Part shown: piece after piece, positions 54,346 to 64,000 of the stretch
How the letters are laid out: every line of letters starts with the position of its first letter
How positions within the stretch are numbered: position 1 is the first letter of the stretch
Assembly (NCBI GenBank): GCA_036984305.1
Contig: BQWY01000001.1
Coordinates: forward strand, 3,183,501-3,247,500
Direction: 5' to 3'
DNA length: 64,000 bases
Source of the DNA: Nitrospira sp.
GTDB lineage: Bacteria > Nitrospirota > Nitrospiria > Nitrospirales > Nitrospiraceae
Translations under genes and position numbers: made by a program
Notes under the pieces: generated by a model
Told to the model about the DNA's origin: nothing
The model's database searches: none
Seen by the model: only the letters and a program-made list of their open reading frames with translations

Positions 54346-54656
54346 ATCCCCAACGCTTCTTTGACCGAGGAAAGGGTCGCTCCGCGGAGCAGAATCCGCT
54401 TCCGTCGTGAACTCCCCCCGGACTGAATCACGACCGCATGAACGGGTAGCCTTACTGTTTTGGCGAGAAACCGCACGAGCGCCTCGTTGGCGGCGCCGTC
54501 GACCGGAGGGGCCGCCACGCGGATCTTCACCGCGCGATCGTGAACCCCGACGCACTGCGTGTGAGTCGCTTTCGGTTGGATGAGGACGAAGAGGACGATG
54601 CCGTCGGCGACAACGTGCGCCCACCCGTCGGGCGTGTCGACATGAGCGGGACTCAG
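54342..54656 (-). CDS. DUF167 (YggU) protein with a CTG start overlapping norQ
   Basis: The conserved DUF167 sequence [36 protein letters not shown] and [13 protein letters not shown] covers bases from ~54630 down to the stop at 54342. The only standard start is GTG 54530, which would remove the first strands. In the full frame the first possible start after norQ is CTG 54656, whose last two bases plus A form the norQ stop (CTGA). AAGGCGGT upstream could serve as ribosome site. Length 104 fits the family (~95-105). Confidence 0.75.
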
Positions 54657-55465
54657 AACACCGCCTTGATCAGTTCTGTTATCGTTCTCTGCATGTCCTG
54701 ATCGTCGGTAATCGGACGGGTGATGGCCACATCGCAGGCTTGTGCGACCGGCACCCCCTGTCGGATGAGCGTCGCGGCATAGACGAGCAGCCTGGTACTG
54801 ACGCCTTCCTCCAATCCGTGATTCTTCAGGTTCCTGACTTTCTCGGCCAATTTCACCAGCGCGTGCGCGACCTCGGTGCCCACCCCGGCCTCACGTTCCA
54901 ACACAGACGCCTCGACGGCCCGATTCGGGTACTCGAACTCAAGCGCCATGAACCGCTGCTTGGTGCTCGGCTTAAGATCTTTCAATACACTTTGATACCC
55001 AGGGTTGTATGAGATCACCAGCATGAAGTCGTCGACGGCCTCGACAACCTGTCCCTTTTTTTCCAGGGGCAAGATTCGCCGATCGTCCGTGAGCGGATGA
55101 ATGATGACGGTCGTGTCTTTCCGTGCCTCGACCACTTCGTCCAGGTACACGATCGCGCCATGCTTGACGCCGACCGTCAGCGGACCGTCGATCCAGACTG
55201 TTTCCTGTCCTCGCAACAGATACCGCCCGACGAGATCGGAAGCCGTCAGATCTTCATGGCACGCAACCGTGATCAGCGGCCGCTTCAACCGGTACGCCAT
55301 GTGCTGAACAAACCGGGTTTTCCCACATCCGGTCGGCCCCTTGAGCATTACAGGAATCCGATTCGCGGCAGCAGTGGTGAACAGGGCGATTTCGCCTCGG
55401 GACTCCAGATAGAACGGCTCCTCGCGCAAGCGGTATTGCTCGATCCCCAGCTCCTGTCCCTTCAT
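54653..55465 (-). CDS. norQ: NorQ/CbbQ-type MoxR AAA+ ATPase
   Basis: 270 residues. ATG 55465 follows [25 protein letters not shown] is Walker [16 protein letters not shown] Walker [16 protein letters not shown] and [11 protein letters not shown] the sensor 1 region; a C-terminal lid follows. It works with NorD/CbbO (at 49406 here) to remodel a target enzyme with ATP. It is in the middle of a minus-strand run: fusion gene, hybrid kinase, norQ, DUF167, lipoprotein. Confidence 0.93.
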
Positions 55466-55594
55466 GGCTCCCTCAGTACCCATGCACATGTGCCGCGTCG
55501 GCCATCAGGGCCTTCACCGCGGACACCACCATAAACGGAACTGTTCGGGAAGATCAAGCGAAGTGGGTGCACAAATCAACCACCCGTGGGCCTG

Positions 55595-58500
55595 CTAGGC
55601 AGTGAGACGCGATGCAGGCTGCGGACGGTCCAACACTTCCCGGACCTTCTGGGCGAGTTCATGCGGGGAGAAGGGCTTTTGCAGCAAGGTTGCTTTGGTT
55701 TTGACCCCACCGTGGGAAAATGCCGGATGATCCGGATATCCCGACATATACAGGACCCGCATGTCGGGCCGAGCGAGACATAATTTTTCAGCGACCTCCG
55801 GTCCGCTCATTTGCGGCATGACCACGTCCGTCAACAACAGGTGAATCGACCCCATATGCTTCGCTCCGGTCAGTAACGCCTCAATCCCATGCCGCGCCAT
55901 GAGCACCTGGTAACCATGCATGCGCAATGTTTCCTGAACCAGAAAACGGACCGCAGGCTCGTCTTCGACGACGAGGATGGTTTCCTTGCCACTAACCCCG
56001 GCGATCACGGCGGGTTTCGGATCCGGGGCCATGACGGATTCCTCGATCCGTGGGAAATAGATCCTGAACCGCGCCCCTTTCCCGGGCGCGCTTTCGACCT
56101 CGATGTGTCCTCCGGCCTGCTTGACGACTCCGTATACCGTGGACAGTCCCAGCCCGGTGCCCTTCCCCTTCTCCTTTGTCGTGAAGAACGGCTCAAAGAT
56201 ATGGGTCTGTGTCTTGTCGTCCATTCCAAAACCGGTATCGCTGACGACGAGCGACACGTATTCTCCCGGCTCCAGCGAAAACGGAGCTAAGGGATGTCCC
56301 TTGGCGATGGAGACGTTCCGGGTTTCGACGGTGAGTTTGCCTCCATTCGGCATCGCATCGTGGGCATTGACCGCCAGGTTCATGACCACCTGCTCGATCT
56401 GTCCAGGATCGGCTTTGATGGTCGCCAGGTCAGGGGCCAGCACGGTACACAACTCAATCAAGTCCTCGCCGATCAGGCGACGCAACATCCCGTCCATTCC
56501 GCTGATGACTTCGTTCAGATCGACGACCTTGGTCGTAATGAACTGACGCCGGCTGAACGCCAGCAGTTGATTGGTCAGCGACGCCGCACGGTCCCCCGCC
56601 TTTTTGACCTCCTCCACTTCCTTTCTCATCGGCTCCTCCTCGCGGAGTCGGTTGAGAATGAGCTCGCAATAGCCACGAATGACGGTCAGGAGGTTGTTGA
56701 AATCGTGGGCCACGCCGCCGGCCAAGCGCCCCACGGCTTCCATCTTCTGACTTTGGCGAAGTTGATCCTCCGTATGTTGGAGTGCCTCTTCCGCTCGCAG
56801 TCGTTTCATGAATTGGCCGAGCCGCAGCCCGACGTCGGATGCCATCCGGATCAACTCTTCATCCGGTTCGCGCACCTGACGCGTGAACAATTCCATCACG
56901 CCCAGGACGTCGCTCCCAACCACGACGGGAAATGCAAACGCTCCGTGCAGGCCGGCCTGAAAGGCCGTGTCTCGACGAGGAAAATTGGGATCGGTGGTCA
57001 CGTCGCGGACCCAGGCCGGTTTCCCATTCGACAGCACGCGCCCTGGAAGCCCCACCCCCTGCGCAAAGGTCTGTCTCCAGGTCGCGTTGACGAACTCCTC
57101 TGCACTGCCCGGCTCCGCGTTCCACAGGTCGAAGCATCGAAGCAGGCGGTGGGTCTCGTCCGTCAACCAAAAGACACTGAGGTCCCACTGGAGCTGGTCA
57201 CAGATCGCTTTGAGGATCTTGGGAATGGCCTCATTCAGCGTCTGCGAGTCTGCCACGACTTGCGTCACGGCAAATTGCGCGGCCAATCGCTGTTCCGTTT
57301 GCTGTCGCTCGGTAATATCCCGCACGAAGACACTGAAGATGTGCGTGTGCCCGATGAGGGAAGGCGACACCGTCAATTCAACCGGAAACTCGTGCCCATC
57401 TTTTCTGTTGGCGGTCGTTTCAACGCGTCGATTGAAGAAGGGGCCTTCGCCCGTCGTGAGAAAATGGTGCAGGCCCTGCTCGTACATTTCCCGGTACCGG
57501 GGAGGGATCACGGTGTCGGAGAAGGATCTGCCCACCGCTTCGTGCCGCGTCCACCCGAAGAGTCTGACCGCCTGGACGTTCCATTCCGTGATGCGGCCGT
57601 CCGCATCCATACTGATGACCGCATCCAGGGAAGTATCGACAACGGCCTTGATGCGTTGCTGGCTCTGCAACAGCGCGGATTCTGCCGCTCGAGCGCACTG
57701 GCTTTCGTACTGTGCCTGGACGGATTCACGGCGTAACCGGCGGGCGGACCAGAAGAGAAGGCCGAGTGCCGGCAGCCCGATCGCCCCACTGGCAAGCCAC
57801 AGTTTGTCCAGCACCCCTTGAATCGGGGTGAGGATGTCGCTCCGATCGCGCCGTAGCAGCACGGTCCAGCCGAATCCTTTGAAGTCCGCGTACCCTTGAC
57901 TGCGGGCATAGCCCGTGACCACCTCCACCTCACGCCGCTGGTGTCGTTCTTTGACATAGCCGGGAAGCCCCGACAAGCTGAGGACCGCCGATGGAAGCCC
58001 GACGTCGCGCAAGTTCACCTGCCCATGGTAGTCACCTTCCGAGTCGATAAACGGCACCCCCTCGCGCGTGAGAAACTGGAACTCGATTCCGCCGGGAAAC
58101 TCCGGTTTCTCACGCATGGCCCGGACGGTGCGAGTCATGACGTCTTCGAGCGTTTCCAGTCCCACAAACGCGCCCAGAACACCCGCAAACCGGCCTTTGG
58201 CATCGAGAATCGGCGCGGACAGGGTTAGGACCTGGCGCCCATCCAGGTCGCCACTCACAGCCACGTCCCCCACGAAGACGCGTCGCTCATCCCGAGCGGA
58301 CGTAAACCAGTCCGTGCGCGCTCGGTCGTGGCCCAACACGGCTCGTTGGGTCGAGGCGATGACGTGCCCATTTGCATCGGTAACGGTCAACCGCGCGTAC
58401 ACCGGGCTGTACGCCTCCTTCATCCACGCCAGATGCTCGTTCAAATACGCATGGTCATCCATGCGCCGTCCGAATGTGCGCGCCATTAACTGCACGTCGC

Positions 58501-58711
58501 CGTACCGTTCGAACAGCAAGCGATCCAGTTTGTCCGCGATTTCAGCGGTCGCTAGCGACAAACTTTCCCCGGCCGTATCGACGAGGCGATCTTCGAGATA
58601 GCGCATCGCCGTCTTCATGGTGACGATCGCCACCACCGTCAACCCGACGATCAGCAGCAGCAGCCACCGGTAGGGCTGCGACCGGGAGGTTTCTGGAATG
58701 GTCGTGCTCAT
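55595..58711 (-). CDS. Hybrid sensor histidine kinase, Cache-PAS-GAF-HK-REC
   Basis: 1038 residues. Two helices flank an extracytoplasmic Cache-type domain (~20-310; LLIVGLTVVAIVTM and LASGAIGLPALGLLFWSAR). Then PAS (~350-470), GAF (~480-640), HisKA with phospho-His GGVAHDFNNLL (~670), HATPase (ITxNxVxNAxDAM-like VVMNLAVNAHDAMPNGG, DTGFGMDDKTQTHIFEPFFTTKEKGKGTGLGLS), and a receiver (~905-1025) with HLLLTDVVMPQMSG. It starts one base after the YkgJ-DUF2156 stop (TGAATG), so both are coupled. Confidence 0.94.
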   Translation of the reverse strand: MSTTIPETSRSQPYRWLLLLIVGLTVVAIVTMKTAMRYLEDRLVDTAGESLSLATAEIADKLDRLLFERYGDVQLMARTFGRRMDDHAYLNEHLAWMKEAYSPVYARLTVTDANGHVIASTQRAVLGHDRARTDWFTSARDERRVFVGDVAVSGDLDGRQVLTLSAPILDAKGRFAGVLGAFVGLETLEDVMTRTVRAMREKPEFPGGIEFQFLTREGVPFIDSEGDYHGQVNLRDVGLPSAVLSLSGLPGYVKERHQRREVEVVTGYARSQGYADFKGFGWTVLLRRDRSDILTPIQGVLDKLWLASGAIGLPALGLLFWSARRLRRESVQAQYESQCARAAESALLQSQQRIKAVVDTSLDAVISMDADGRITEWNVQAVRLFGWTRHEAVGRSFSDTVIPPRYREMYEQGLHHFLTTGEGPFFNRRVETTANRKDGHEFPVELTVSPSLIGHTHIFSVFVRDITERQQTEQRLAAQFAVTQVVADSQTLNEAIPKILKAICDQLQWDLSVFWLTDETHRLLRCFDLWNAEPGSAEEFVNATWRQTFAQGVGLPGRVLSNGKPAWVRDVTTDPNFPRRDTAFQAGLHGAFAFPVVVGSDVLGVMELFTRQVREPDEELIRMASDVGLRLGQFMKRLRAEEALQHTEDQLRQSQKMEAVGRLAGGVAHDFNNLLTVIRGYCELILNRLREEEPMRKEVEEVKKAGDRAASLTNQLLAFSRRQFITTKVVDLNEVISGMDGMLRRLIGEDLIELCTVLAPDLATIKADPGQIEQVVMNLAVNAHDAMPNGGKLTVETRNVSIAKGHPLAPFSLEPGEYVSLVVSDTGFGMDDKTQTHIFEPFFTTKEKGKGTGLGLSTVYGVVKQAGGHIEVESAPGKGARFRIYFPRIEESVMAPDPKPAVIAGVSGKETILVVEDEPAVRFLVQETLRMHGYQVLMARHGIEALLTGAKHMGSIHLLLTDVVMPQMSGPEVAEKLCLARPDMRVLYMSGYPDHPAFSHGGVKTKATLLQKPFSPHELAQKVREVLDRPQPASRLTA

Positions 58712-60235
58712 TCAGGACTCGTACACCGTCGCAACCTGGATGACCTGTGCGGGATGATACGACTGCTTCGAGCGGGCCAACGATTCAAGGCCCGATGAGT
58801 CCATGCTGTTCGCCCATCGGCACCCTGCCTCCGCCGCACGGCGCACCGTCTCGCGAAACGTCCAGTTGGAAAGACCGGCAATCGAACGATCGGCAACCTC
58901 AGCCACGACACACCAGACATTCGACCCGATACGCGCACCAAAGGTATAGGCGCGAAGCCTCCCGTCCACGCGCACCACACGCCCGGTAAGCCCCACGACG
59001 TGCGCCTCGGAGAGCAGTCGGCGATGGAAGGCCTCGGAATCCTCCAAAAGGAGCGCTGCCCACTCGGCGTCGCGCTGCGGGTGCGCACCGAGGCGTTTCT
59101 GCACCTGCCAGTCCGCATGGAGTGTCAGGCACTCAGCTCGATGGGATTCGTTGAAGGGTTCGATCGTGACCTCGTGCTCGCGAACGAGCTTGTTGCAGGC
59201 CGCTCGTTGGGACTTGTAGCGGTCTCCCTTGAGTTCCACGAGATCCTCGGCCCTGTACACATACTCGGGCTCCCCCGGCACCGCCGGATAGCCGTGTCGG
59301 GCCCACGCGTCTGCCCACGTCTGCGGAACCTGTTCAATTCTGGCGACTCGATGTCCGCGCGAGTGATGGTTCATCACGTCGAAGACCTCAGCCAGCAGGT
59401 CGGCGTCCGTGTTCCCTCCGAGAGGCGGAACCGGCATAAACCATCCATCCGCACACTCGGCGAACAGGCAGAGACAACCGCGAATTTCACGCCAGCTATA
59501 CCGCAATCGATCCCGCCACAGGGCATGGTTTGCAAAGAGCCATGCGGAGGGACACTCGGGATCGTCAGGCAAGGTCCGTCGCGCGGCGGACTCGAACCGA
59601 GCGCGATCGTCCAACGTCAGGAGCAGCCCCATCCCAAACGGGAAGCGCACACGAAGTCGCTCCGTAAGCACCGGAAGCGACTGCAGCACCACGACATCCT
59701 CCTGGTACCGCGTTACCAGCGAAGGGTTGCGCTCGATGAGTCCAAGTCGCGGTTCGCACTCCAAGGTCGCCGCAACTTCCCGGGCGTAGCAGGATAACTC
59801 ATGGGGCACTTGGGCAGCCGACGCGGGCGGTTCGAGATATGGGCACTTGGAATCCCAACCCAGCATGACCACGCTCTGGTCGGCATTCCACATAAGCGCA
59901 AGCGGGTAGAGTTGGCAATCGAGGGGGCGATCGGCATAAATCGAGCAGCAGTTGGAGGCGACATCATAGGCTGGACAAATGTACCCCTCCTGGCTCGAGT
60001 GTGGCACGAGGACGACCTGTCCACCTCGCTCATTGGGAAAGGCTGCCGCTGGAATGCCGCACGCAACCGCTCGCTGGATTTCCTCGGCAGTAAAGTACGG
60101 CCGCAGGAAGCTGTCCGCCTCCGGAAAATGGCAACACACGTCGCACGTCGCACACACCCGACCGGGAACATATTGCGCCAGGGGAGCGAGCGGGAGTTGG
60201 CGAACCGTATGGGACATCGCCTGAGCGGACGGCAT
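58712..60235 (-). CDS. Fusion of YkgJ cysteine cluster and DUF2156 acyl/aminoacyl-transferase-like domain
   Basis: 507 residues; no signal peptide. N-terminal half: C28, C31, C34, C35, C87, C96, C97 and C107 form the YkgJ-type (Fe-S/zinc-chelating) signature (CATCDVCCHF, ICPAYDVASNCC, RPLDCQLYPL). C-terminal half (~300-500): DUF2156-type GNAT-like fold (YVYRAEDLVELKGDRYKSQRAACNKLV, LRAYTFGARIGSN, RWANSMDSSGLESLARSKQSYHP), the domain that in MprF transfers lysine to lipid. Fusion of these is rare to me. Ends directly before a hybrid kinase. Start 60235 or ATG 60217; ribosome site weak. Confidence 0.8.
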   Translation of the reverse strand: MPSAQAMSHTVRQLPLAPLAQYVPGRVCATCDVCCHFPEADSFLRPYFTAEEIQRAVACGIPAAAFPNERGGQVVLVPHSSQEGYICPAYDVASNCCSIYADRPLDCQLYPLALMWNADQSVVMLGWDSKCPYLEPPASAAQVPHELSCYAREVAATLECEPRLGLIERNPSLVTRYQEDVVVLQSLPVLTERLRVRFPFGMGLLLTLDDRARFESAARRTLPDDPECPSAWLFANHALWRDRLRYSWREIRGCLCLFAECADGWFMPVPPLGGNTDADLLAEVFDVMNHHSRGHRVARIEQVPQTWADAWARHGYPAVPGEPEYVYRAEDLVELKGDRYKSQRAACNKLVREHEVTIEPFNESHRAECLTLHADWQVQKRLGAHPQRDAEWAALLLEDSEAFHRRLLSEAHVVGLTGRVVRVDGRLRAYTFGARIGSNVWCVVAEVADRSIAGLSNWTFRETVRRAAEAGCRWANSMDSSGLESLARSKQSYHPAQVIQVATVYES

Positions 60236-61628: not shown

Positions 61629-63104
61629 TTGGTACCGTCGCCCAGCGATTCGGCGCAGACTTCTCCGGACTTAGCTACCCTGCGCTGCTCCACCATCCGT
61701 GACAGTCTGATCCAGGAGGGTTTATTTCACTCCACTGCTTCGGATTCGGATGGCGGCTTTGCCTCGACCTGGCGTGTGTCCCCCACCCCCTACGCGCTCT
61801 CGGCTTCGGACTTGCTCTTTTTTGAGGCTTTGGGTCCGCAGCTCCTGGCGTTTTACCGCGCTGTCAACCGCCTCTACATGGACAGCGTACGAGGAGACCA
61901 ACCGGCCTGGGTGGCGCGCTATCTCGACCAGGGGAAGCCTGAATCCCTCGTGGCCTTCGGCAGAATGAATCGTTTCAAATCCTCGTTACCCAGTGTGATC
62001 CGGCCCGATGTCCTACCGACGGACGAGGGTATGATCATTACCGAACTCGACTCCGTTCCCGGAGGAATCGGCCTGACCGGCGCCTTGGGTCGGCTCTATG
62101 CGAGCCACGTTGAAGGCAAACCGGCGATCGCAGGCGGCCCGGACGGTATGGTCGAAGGTTTCGGACGGATGGCACAAAGTCTACTGGCACCGGAGGGTGG
62201 ACTCACGGCCATCGTGGTGTCGGAAGAAGCCAAAGAGTATCGTCCCGAGATGCAGTGGCTTTCGAACGCCCTCTCCCGGCAAGAGGTTGAATGCGTCTGC
62301 ATCGAACCGCGGGACGTACGATTTACCGAGGATGGACTGTGGGCGCTCGTCGGGGGACGGGAACAGCCCATTCGCTTGCTCTATCGGTTCTTTGAGCTCT
62401 TCGATTTGAAGAACGTCCCAAAGACCGAGCTGGTCATGTACAGCCTGAAGAAAGCGCAGGTCGCGGCAACTCCTCCATTCAAACCCGCGCTGGAGGAAAA
62501 ACTCGCCCTCGCGCTCTTTCATCATCCGGTGCTGTCGTCCTACTGGCGCCGCGAACTCGGTGACGAAATCATGACGGCTCTGTCTGCCGTATTTCCCCGA
62601 ACGTGGGTACTGGACCCTGCTCCACTACCTCCGACCGCCGTGATCCCCGATTTGACAATCGGCGGGAACCCGGTCACCGACTGGCAGCAGGTGAGCCAGG
62701 CAGGGCAGCGGGAACGGCAGCTGGTCATCAAACCGTCCGGCTTTTCGGCACTTGCCTGGGGGAGCCGAGGCGTGTCGATCGGGCACGACATGCCGCAAAC
62801 GGAGTGGGCCCAGGCGCTCAAAGGGGCCCTCGGATCGTTCGACACATTGCCCCACGTCTTGCAGCATTTTCATAAGGCGCGATCCATCTCGATGTCCTAC
62901 TTCGATCCGGATGGGAACCGTCTGGTGCCGATGCAAGGGCGGGCGCGACTCTGTCCTTATTATTTTGTCGTCGAGGATCGCGCCGAACTCGGAGGTATCC
63001 TGGCCACCGTCTGCCCGGCGGACAAGAAAATCCTCCATGGGATGCGCGACGCCATCTTGGCGCCCTGTGCGGTCGTACCCGGTGACCAGTCTGGTGATCA
63101 GTAA
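61629..63104 (+). CDS. ATP-grasp-like protein of unknown function (TTG start)
   Basis: 491 residues. The start is TTG 61629 with AAAGGA eight bases upstream; no ATG lies before ~61880. Motifs: ELDSVPGGIGLTG, then in the C-terminal half QLVIKPSGFSALAWGSRGVSIGHD (Lys of the ATP-grasp strand), LQHFHKAR, MQGRARLCPYYFV, VCPADKKILHGMRDAILAPC. This looks like an ATP-grasp ligase of the glutathionylspermidine-synthase-like kind; not a named family I can identify. Short spacing (85 bases) to the next gene, glutaredoxin, suggests an operon with KamA. Confidence 0.72.
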   Translation: MVPSPSDSAQTSPDLATLRCSTIRDSLIQEGLFHSTASDSDGGFASTWRVSPTPYALSASDLLFFEALGPQLLAFYRAVNRLYMDSVRGDQPAWVARYLDQGKPESLVAFGRMNRFKSSLPSVIRPDVLPTDEGMIITELDSVPGGIGLTGALGRLYASHVEGKPAIAGGPDGMVEGFGRMAQSLLAPEGGLTAIVVSEEAKEYRPEMQWLSNALSRQEVECVCIEPRDVRFTEDGLWALVGGREQPIRLLYRFFELFDLKNVPKTELVMYSLKKAQVAATPPFKPALEEKLALALFHHPVLSSYWRRELGDEIMTALSAVFPRTWVLDPAPLPPTAVIPDLTIGGNPVTDWQQVSQAGQRERQLVIKPSGFSALAWGSRGVSIGHDMPQTEWAQALKGALGSFDTLPHVLQHFHKARSISMSYFDPDGNRLVPMQGRARLCPYYFVVEDRAELGGILATVCPADKKILHGMRDAILAPCAVVPGDQSGDQ

Positions 63105-63420: not shown

Positions 63421-63450
63421 CCCCGGCAGGGGCGAACCAAAGGAGTGCCT

Positions 63451-64000
63451 GTGGAAGAGTGGAGACGTATCCTGGCGGACAGCATCGTGAAGCCGAAAGA
63501 CCTGGCCGAACGATTCGGGCTCGACGCCGCTGAACTGGAAGCGATCGCCGGCCCCTATCCGATGCGCATCACACCCACCGTGTTGTCGACGATCAAGAAG
63601 AAGGGCGACGCCATTTGGAAGCAGGTCATCCCAGAGGCCGAAGAACTGGCCGATCTCGATGCGGTCGACGACCCGCTCGAAGAAGACCTCATGAGTCCGG
63701 TGCCACACCTCGTGCATCGCTACCCAGACCGCGTGCTGTTGATGGTCACGAATCAATGTCCGATCTACTGCCGATTTTGCACGCGAAAGCGGCTCGTCGG
63801 AAAACCCGGCTTCCTCAAGAAGGGTGAATTAGACCGGGCCATCGCGTATTTGCGCGTGCATACCGAAGTCCGCGACGTCATTTTGTCGGGAGGTGATCCC
63901 TTGCTGCTTCCGGATCATCTCCTGGAGCGGATCTTGAAGGCCCTGCGGACCATCCCGCACTTGGAGTTGATTCGAATCGGCTCGCGCGTGCCTGGGACGC
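63451..64000 (+). CDS. kamA: KamA-family radical SAM aminomutase (3' end cut by window)
   Basis: The first 183 residues. GTG 63451 follows AAAGGAG. After a helical N-terminus (WRRILADSIVKPKDLAERFGLDAAELE) comes the ITPTVLSTI and the radical SAM motif CPIYCRFC (C-x3-C-x2-C), then VRDVILSGGDPLLLPDHLLERIL and RIGSRVPGT as in lysine 2,3-aminomutase. It uses SAM, PLP and a [4Fe-4S] cluster; the PLP Lys would lie past the end. The substrate could be lysine, glutamate or another amino acid, or lysine on EF-P (EpmB type). Confidence 0.88.
   Translation, partial: MEEWRRILADSIVKPKDLAERFGLDAAELEAIAGPYPMRITPTVLSTIKKKGDAIWKQVIPEAEELADLDAVDDPLEEDLMSPVPHLVHRYPDRVLLMVTNQCPIYCRFCTRKRLVGKPGFLKKGELDRAIAYLRVHTEVRDVILSGGDPLLLPDHLLERILKALRTIPHLELIRIGSRVPGT

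Follow-up and report, generated by a model that had tools for sequence, protein, structure and literature searches.

A YkgJ-type cysteine domain and a DUF2156 tandem-GNAT domain, fused or adjacent across Nitrospirota, as one probable enzyme

A YkgJ-type cysteine domain and a tandem-GNAT domain of the DUF2156 type are joined in a single Nitrospira protein, here called P0001, and are encoded by neighbouring genes in many of its relatives. Comparison across genomes provides strong evidence that the two halves work together, and they probably form one uncharacterised enzyme. It is best pictured as a soluble, two-domain aminoacyl-tRNA-dependent transferase with a dedicated YkgJ subunit, probably an iron-sulfur protein, that the reaction needs; the probability of this reading is put at about 0.45. 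That is, the tandem-GNAT half would move an amino acid from aminoacyl-tRNA to an acceptor; the YkgJ half, with its eight cysteines and putative iron-sulfur cluster, would be an obligate subunit that either switches transfer in response to redox or iron conditions or else handles the acceptor.

P0001 is encoded by an ATG-initiated reading frame in the window, the whole 64,000-nucleotide stretch of DNA that was analysed (Table 1). A preliminary description had placed a gene at exactly this position, which is borne out, on the minus strand; it had also read the product as eight cysteines in the YkgJ pattern ahead of a DUF2156/GNAT domain, and both assignments hold up, the second by Pfam profile and predicted fold alike. 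The CxxCxxCC (YkgJ) profile matches residues 28-113 at 28.6 bits (curated cut-off 23) and the LPG_synthase_C (DUF2156) profile residues 234-499 at 105.8 bits (curated cut-off 27.5); no NCBIfam model matches P0001. DUF2156 is single-copy in the window's genome, where PF03692 has three matches.

Table 1. Features of the window discussed in the text
Feature	Position	Strand	Basis and remarks
CbbQ/NorQ-type AAA ATPase	54653..55489	-	Pfam AAA_5 + CbbQ_C; syntenic in order Nitrospirales only
Hybrid histidine kinase, dCache-PAS-GAF-HisKA-HATPase-receiver	55595..58711	-	Pfam; translationally coupled; accessory, not core
YkgJ-DUF2156 fusion P0001, 507 aa	58712..60235	-	ORF; Pfam PF03692 + PF09924; AlphaFold2 model
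DUF2156 / LPG_synthase_C tandem-GNAT domain, residues 200-507 of P0001	58715..59638	-	PF09924 + fold comparison
YkgJ-type cysteine region, residues ~21-140 of P0001, eight invariant Cys	59816..60175	-	PF03692 match + Cys conservation
ORF491, divergent neighbour without known family	61629..63104	+	syntenic in order Nitrospirales only
KamA-family radical SAM protein	63445-64000	+	adjoins ORF491; ortholog L031:13947-15143

Seen as a phylogenetic profile, the pairing is no one-off: it is fused or adjacent across Nitrospirota and present as a pair in one member of the Bacillota. A scan of genome contigs with an alignment as query (a single-protein query gave 0 matches) yielded 282 confirmed homologous stretches, and homologues are present in 44 of 61 related genomes; the reading frame of P0001 is therefore not a product of chance. 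Among the named relatives, the best 80 come almost all from Nitrospira, Nitrospiraceae or Nitrospirae assemblies. A profile of the fused form matches 173 of 295 sampled Nitrospirota genomes, some of them weakly or over one domain only. Fused forms occur in families f1, f2, f5, f9, f12 and f18; in families f2, f3, f6, f10, f20 and f21 the halves are split into adjacent genes on the same strand, YkgJ first, and so they are even in f21, a group just 23-32% identical to the protein of the window. Wherever a sampled lineage has both halves, they are fused or adjacent. In 16 of 17 split pairs the second gene starts between -14 and +56 nt from the stop of the first, and five pairs overlap by 4 bp (-4); start codons were chosen by script and a few may be off. 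On a tree of 24 rows, which replaces one of 34 rows in which a row (L189) was mis-framed and some branches were very long, there are five changes between the fused and split states, two of them forced by well-supported branches. Within family f3, both halves are found in seven genomes, neither in at least 13, and one alone in none. The systematic survey covered Nitrospirota; the pair beyond that phylum is one case, Monoglobus pectinilyticus (Bacillota), in which genes annotated as YkgJ and as a phosphatidylglycerol-lysyltransferase-domain protein lie 7 nt apart. Such lasting adjacency, together with repeated fusion, argues strongly that the YkgJ and DUF2156 proteins work together. DUF2156 genes with no adjacent YkgJ gene are found in family f32, Bacteroides and Acetoanaerobium; the fold in itself thus does not require a YkgJ half.

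The C-terminal half is a predicted tandem GNAT. In the AlphaFold2 model of P0001 (mean pLDDT 88.5), residues 200-507 take up this fold and compare with DUF2156 structures at Z 19-33: the closest is 2HQY (Z 33.2, rmsd 2.2 over 290 residues), and the synthase domains of MprF score about 19-21; among other tandem GNATs, Sba18/Sbb17, peptide synthases that depend on aminoacyl-tRNA, score about 18 and FemX about 17. Profile searches agree with the model: profile A5, which includes a Bacteroides relative, finds 2HQY at E 7e-98, and a Nitrospira-only profile finds it at E 3.9e-28. Profile A5 also reaches the MprF lysyl-phosphatidylglycerol synthase L-PGS (4V36) at E 0.0011 over GKKRAGLRAIYNRFEREG, the counterpart of which in P0001 is GDRYKSQRAACNKLVREH; this segment covers the R..xN..R motif. 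Between Nitrospira, Bacillota and Bacteroidota, residues R344, N348, E446, N476, G482 and K490 change little or not at all, and K490 is invariant across 15 divergent rows. Tandem-GNAT enzymes of the FemABX and VlmA type, which use aminoacyl-tRNA, have a conserved C-terminal catalytic lysine, Lys305 in FemX and Lys329 in DhpH-C (PMC12945691); judged from the ends of the aligned ranges, K490 would fall at about the same place in the model. Soluble aminoacyl-tRNA enzymes of this fold do exist, VlmA for example (PMC2922099; PMC12945691). The earlier suggestion of an aminoacyl- or acyltransferase is strengthened as to the transferase: the nearest structures of known function are aminoacyl-tRNA-dependent, and the motif aligns with that of MprF L-PGS.

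The same fold would also suit a GNAT that depends on acyl- or acetyl-CoA and has lost the link to tRNA; YkgJ would then bind metal and have a regulatory or structural role. The family is, after all, GNAT-fold; the acetyl-CoA tandem GNATs 2c27 (mycothiol synthase) and 5kga align with the model at Z of about 14; and 2HQY has no assigned substrate. However, the aminoacyl-tRNA enzymes outrank these CoA enzymes in the fold comparison, the CoA pyrophosphate loop pattern [QR]xxGx[GA] is conserved at no column of the alignment of divergent rows, and the MprF-type motif is retained, so that a CoA-dependent enzyme seems unlikely.

Among known systems, 2HQY, a soluble DUF2156 protein of Bacteroides thetaiotaomicron, shares with P0001 the tandem-GNAT domain, the R..xN residues and the C-terminal lysine, but has no YkgJ part. 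It is the closest structure, yet one without an assigned function; as a consequence, tRNA is the proposed donor for P0001 and not an established one. A relative in Bacteroides finegoldii has no YkgJ neighbour: CidA/LrgB genes precede the standalone DUF2156 gene, and a GNAT N-acetyltransferase gene follows it directly (L210:4638-6585). These neighbours may possibly be a different partner for proteins of the 2HQY type. The aminoacyl-tRNA-dependent transferases FemX, VlmA, DhpH-C, Orf11 and Sba18/Sbb17 resemble P0001 in being soluble tandem GNATs and may share with it a C-terminal catalytic lysine (PMC12945691), but act on peptidoglycan precursors or antibiotics; no cysteine-cluster domain is described with any of them in the literature examined. 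Fusion of a DUF2156-type transferase to a partner domain is also seen in LysX and ErdS, in which an aminoacyl-tRNA synthetase is joined to an MprF/DUF2156 domain (PMC9437257); the partner there charges tRNA, whereas in P0001 it is a cysteine cluster.

The synthase domain of MprF (L-PGS, 4V36; A-PGS, 4V34/4V35) shares the fold and the R..xNRF.RE motif with P0001, at 11-15% identity. P0001 differs in having the extra YkgJ domain and in lacking the N-terminal multi-pass membrane flippase domain that would place it in MprF. One might nevertheless suppose that P0001 makes an aminoacylated membrane lipid, as MprF does, and that YkgJ takes over positioning from the membrane domain. The synthase fold of the C-terminal half is consistent with this, as is the setting of the split pair in family f20, behind transglycosylase, LolA-like and dCache-HAMP-GAF genes. 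But these envelope genes are confined to that one family; P0001 has no membrane segment (its highest 19-residue hydropathy is 1.11); and the isolated catalytic domain of MprF makes no lipid in cells (PMC8131360). A lipid product is thus quite improbable.

The YkgJ half is the less familiar one. Its pattern cysteines are C28, C31, C34, C35, C87, C97, C107 and C131, that is, a CX2CX2CC motif followed by later cysteines; not one of the eight varies across the 66 Nitrospira-type relatives of alignment A2, whereas the four further N-terminal cysteines do. The eight are kept in the distant split forms as well, C97 being displaced in Monoglobus only. Modelled alone, residues 1-200 reach a pLDDT of 88.5; comparison with the PDB gave no fold match (best Foldseek E 0.58; VIA Z 2.1), nor did comparison with viral models, and the lack of a PDB match does not show that the modelled fold is new. 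YkgJ proteins may bind zinc. The one experimental lead found to its function is FliB, in which a CX4CX3CC motif holds a single [4Fe-4S] cluster; FliB, too, has eight conserved cysteines, and its authors liken it to PF03692 (PMC8598068). P0001 has a like N-terminal C..CC motif and a like number of conserved cysteines; by analogy, the YkgJ half probably carries an iron-sulfur cluster. The CX2CX2CC spacing of P0001 does not fit the FliB motif, and for this reason membership in FliB is not claimed; moreover, FliB transfers methyl groups from SAM and has no described DUF2156 domain.

The analogy can be pressed further: the YkgJ half may itself be catalytic, a FliB-like iron-sulfur modifier, and the DUF2156 half would then act on that substrate in turn. 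The cysteine-bound cluster of FliB does serve a SAM-dependent lysine methylation (PMC8598068), and residues 20-140 of P0001 are more conserved than the transferase half, including positions other than cysteine (S42, R45, P46, R103, D106, W127 and D128). Two points tell against such a two-step enzyme: the cysteine spacing is unlike, and no solved enzyme resembles the N-terminal model. This reading, too, is doubtful. Against the preferred one, a transferase with a dedicated YkgJ subunit, it counts that no conserved third partner indicates a substrate.

A neighbour tightly coupled to the fusion is the hybrid histidine kinase: its start codon begins at 58711, right next to the stop of P0001 (junction TGA/ATG). 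This coupling, pointed out in the preliminary description, is real in the window and in most Nitrospira: the kinase start lies within 20 nt of the fusion stop in 55 of 59 Nitrospira loci with the kinase, usually with a 4-bp overlap. As a core partner, however, the kinase is rejected: it is missing from some Nitrospiraceae, and none was found directly beside the pair in lineages outside the order Nitrospirales. Because it is apparently absent from the deeper lineages, though tightly coupled in most Nitrospira, it is best regarded as an add-on. Its sensor is variable: in one Nitrospira set, only the part from about residue 270-322 onwards resembles the window kinase, a hint that the dCache sensor has been exchanged. 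Family f20 has a sensor gene as well, of the dCache-HAMP-GAF type and immediately upstream of the split pair; a sensory neighbour thus recurs, though a different one. In four genomes of that family (L185:5046-10367, L186, L187 and L190), the transglycosylase, LolA-like and dCache-HAMP-GAF genes precede the pair in the same orientation. The distant split pair of family f21 lies directly downstream of hflX (L180, L182, L183, L184 and L198).

KamA, ORF491 and CbbQ were considered as members of a pathway shared with the fusion; within the order Nitrospirales their synteny is strong, but it ends there, and the idea was rejected. ORF491 belongs to a conserved family of proteins of about 490 aa, with 62% mean column identity over 42 relatives, and is divergent from the fusion throughout the order; it has no match in Pfam, NCBIfam or the PDB. 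By eye it resembles the ATP-grasp ligases, a candidate assignment. The KamA-family protein is about 80-90% identical in most relatives and about 70% in the deepest; its ortholog in L031 falls below the cut-offs for AblA, EpmB and glutamate 2,3-aminomutase. A role as EpmB, acting on EF-P, was likewise rejected: the ortholog in genome G012 reaches a score of 235.9 where 369.3 is required, and no protein of the window's genome attains the cut-off for EpmA; the one that comes nearest is a 516-aa frame, about as long as LysRS.

Each of the two domains is already known; for their pairing, no describing paper was found in the open-access literature (most subscription journals lie outside that search), nor any account of the fusion as a well-characterised family. 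YkgJ proteins occur widely, most of them with no assigned function, and soluble DUF2156 proteins, 2HQY among them, lack an assignment too. Since the two have fused repeatedly and stayed adjacent, each unassigned family is tied to the other, so that both can be tested jointly. A bolder extension, tentative and on balance unlikely, is that the pair is a cross-phylum enzyme not described before, whose iron-sulfur protein would have a direct part in the tRNA-dependent aminoacylation of a cell component, or gate it directly, and so would link redox or iron state to transfer. We know of no earlier tRNA-dependent aminoacyl transfer that a metal-cluster domain serves. If the transferase works as proposed, and depends on its cysteines, the YkgJ-DUF2156 pair would be the first known.
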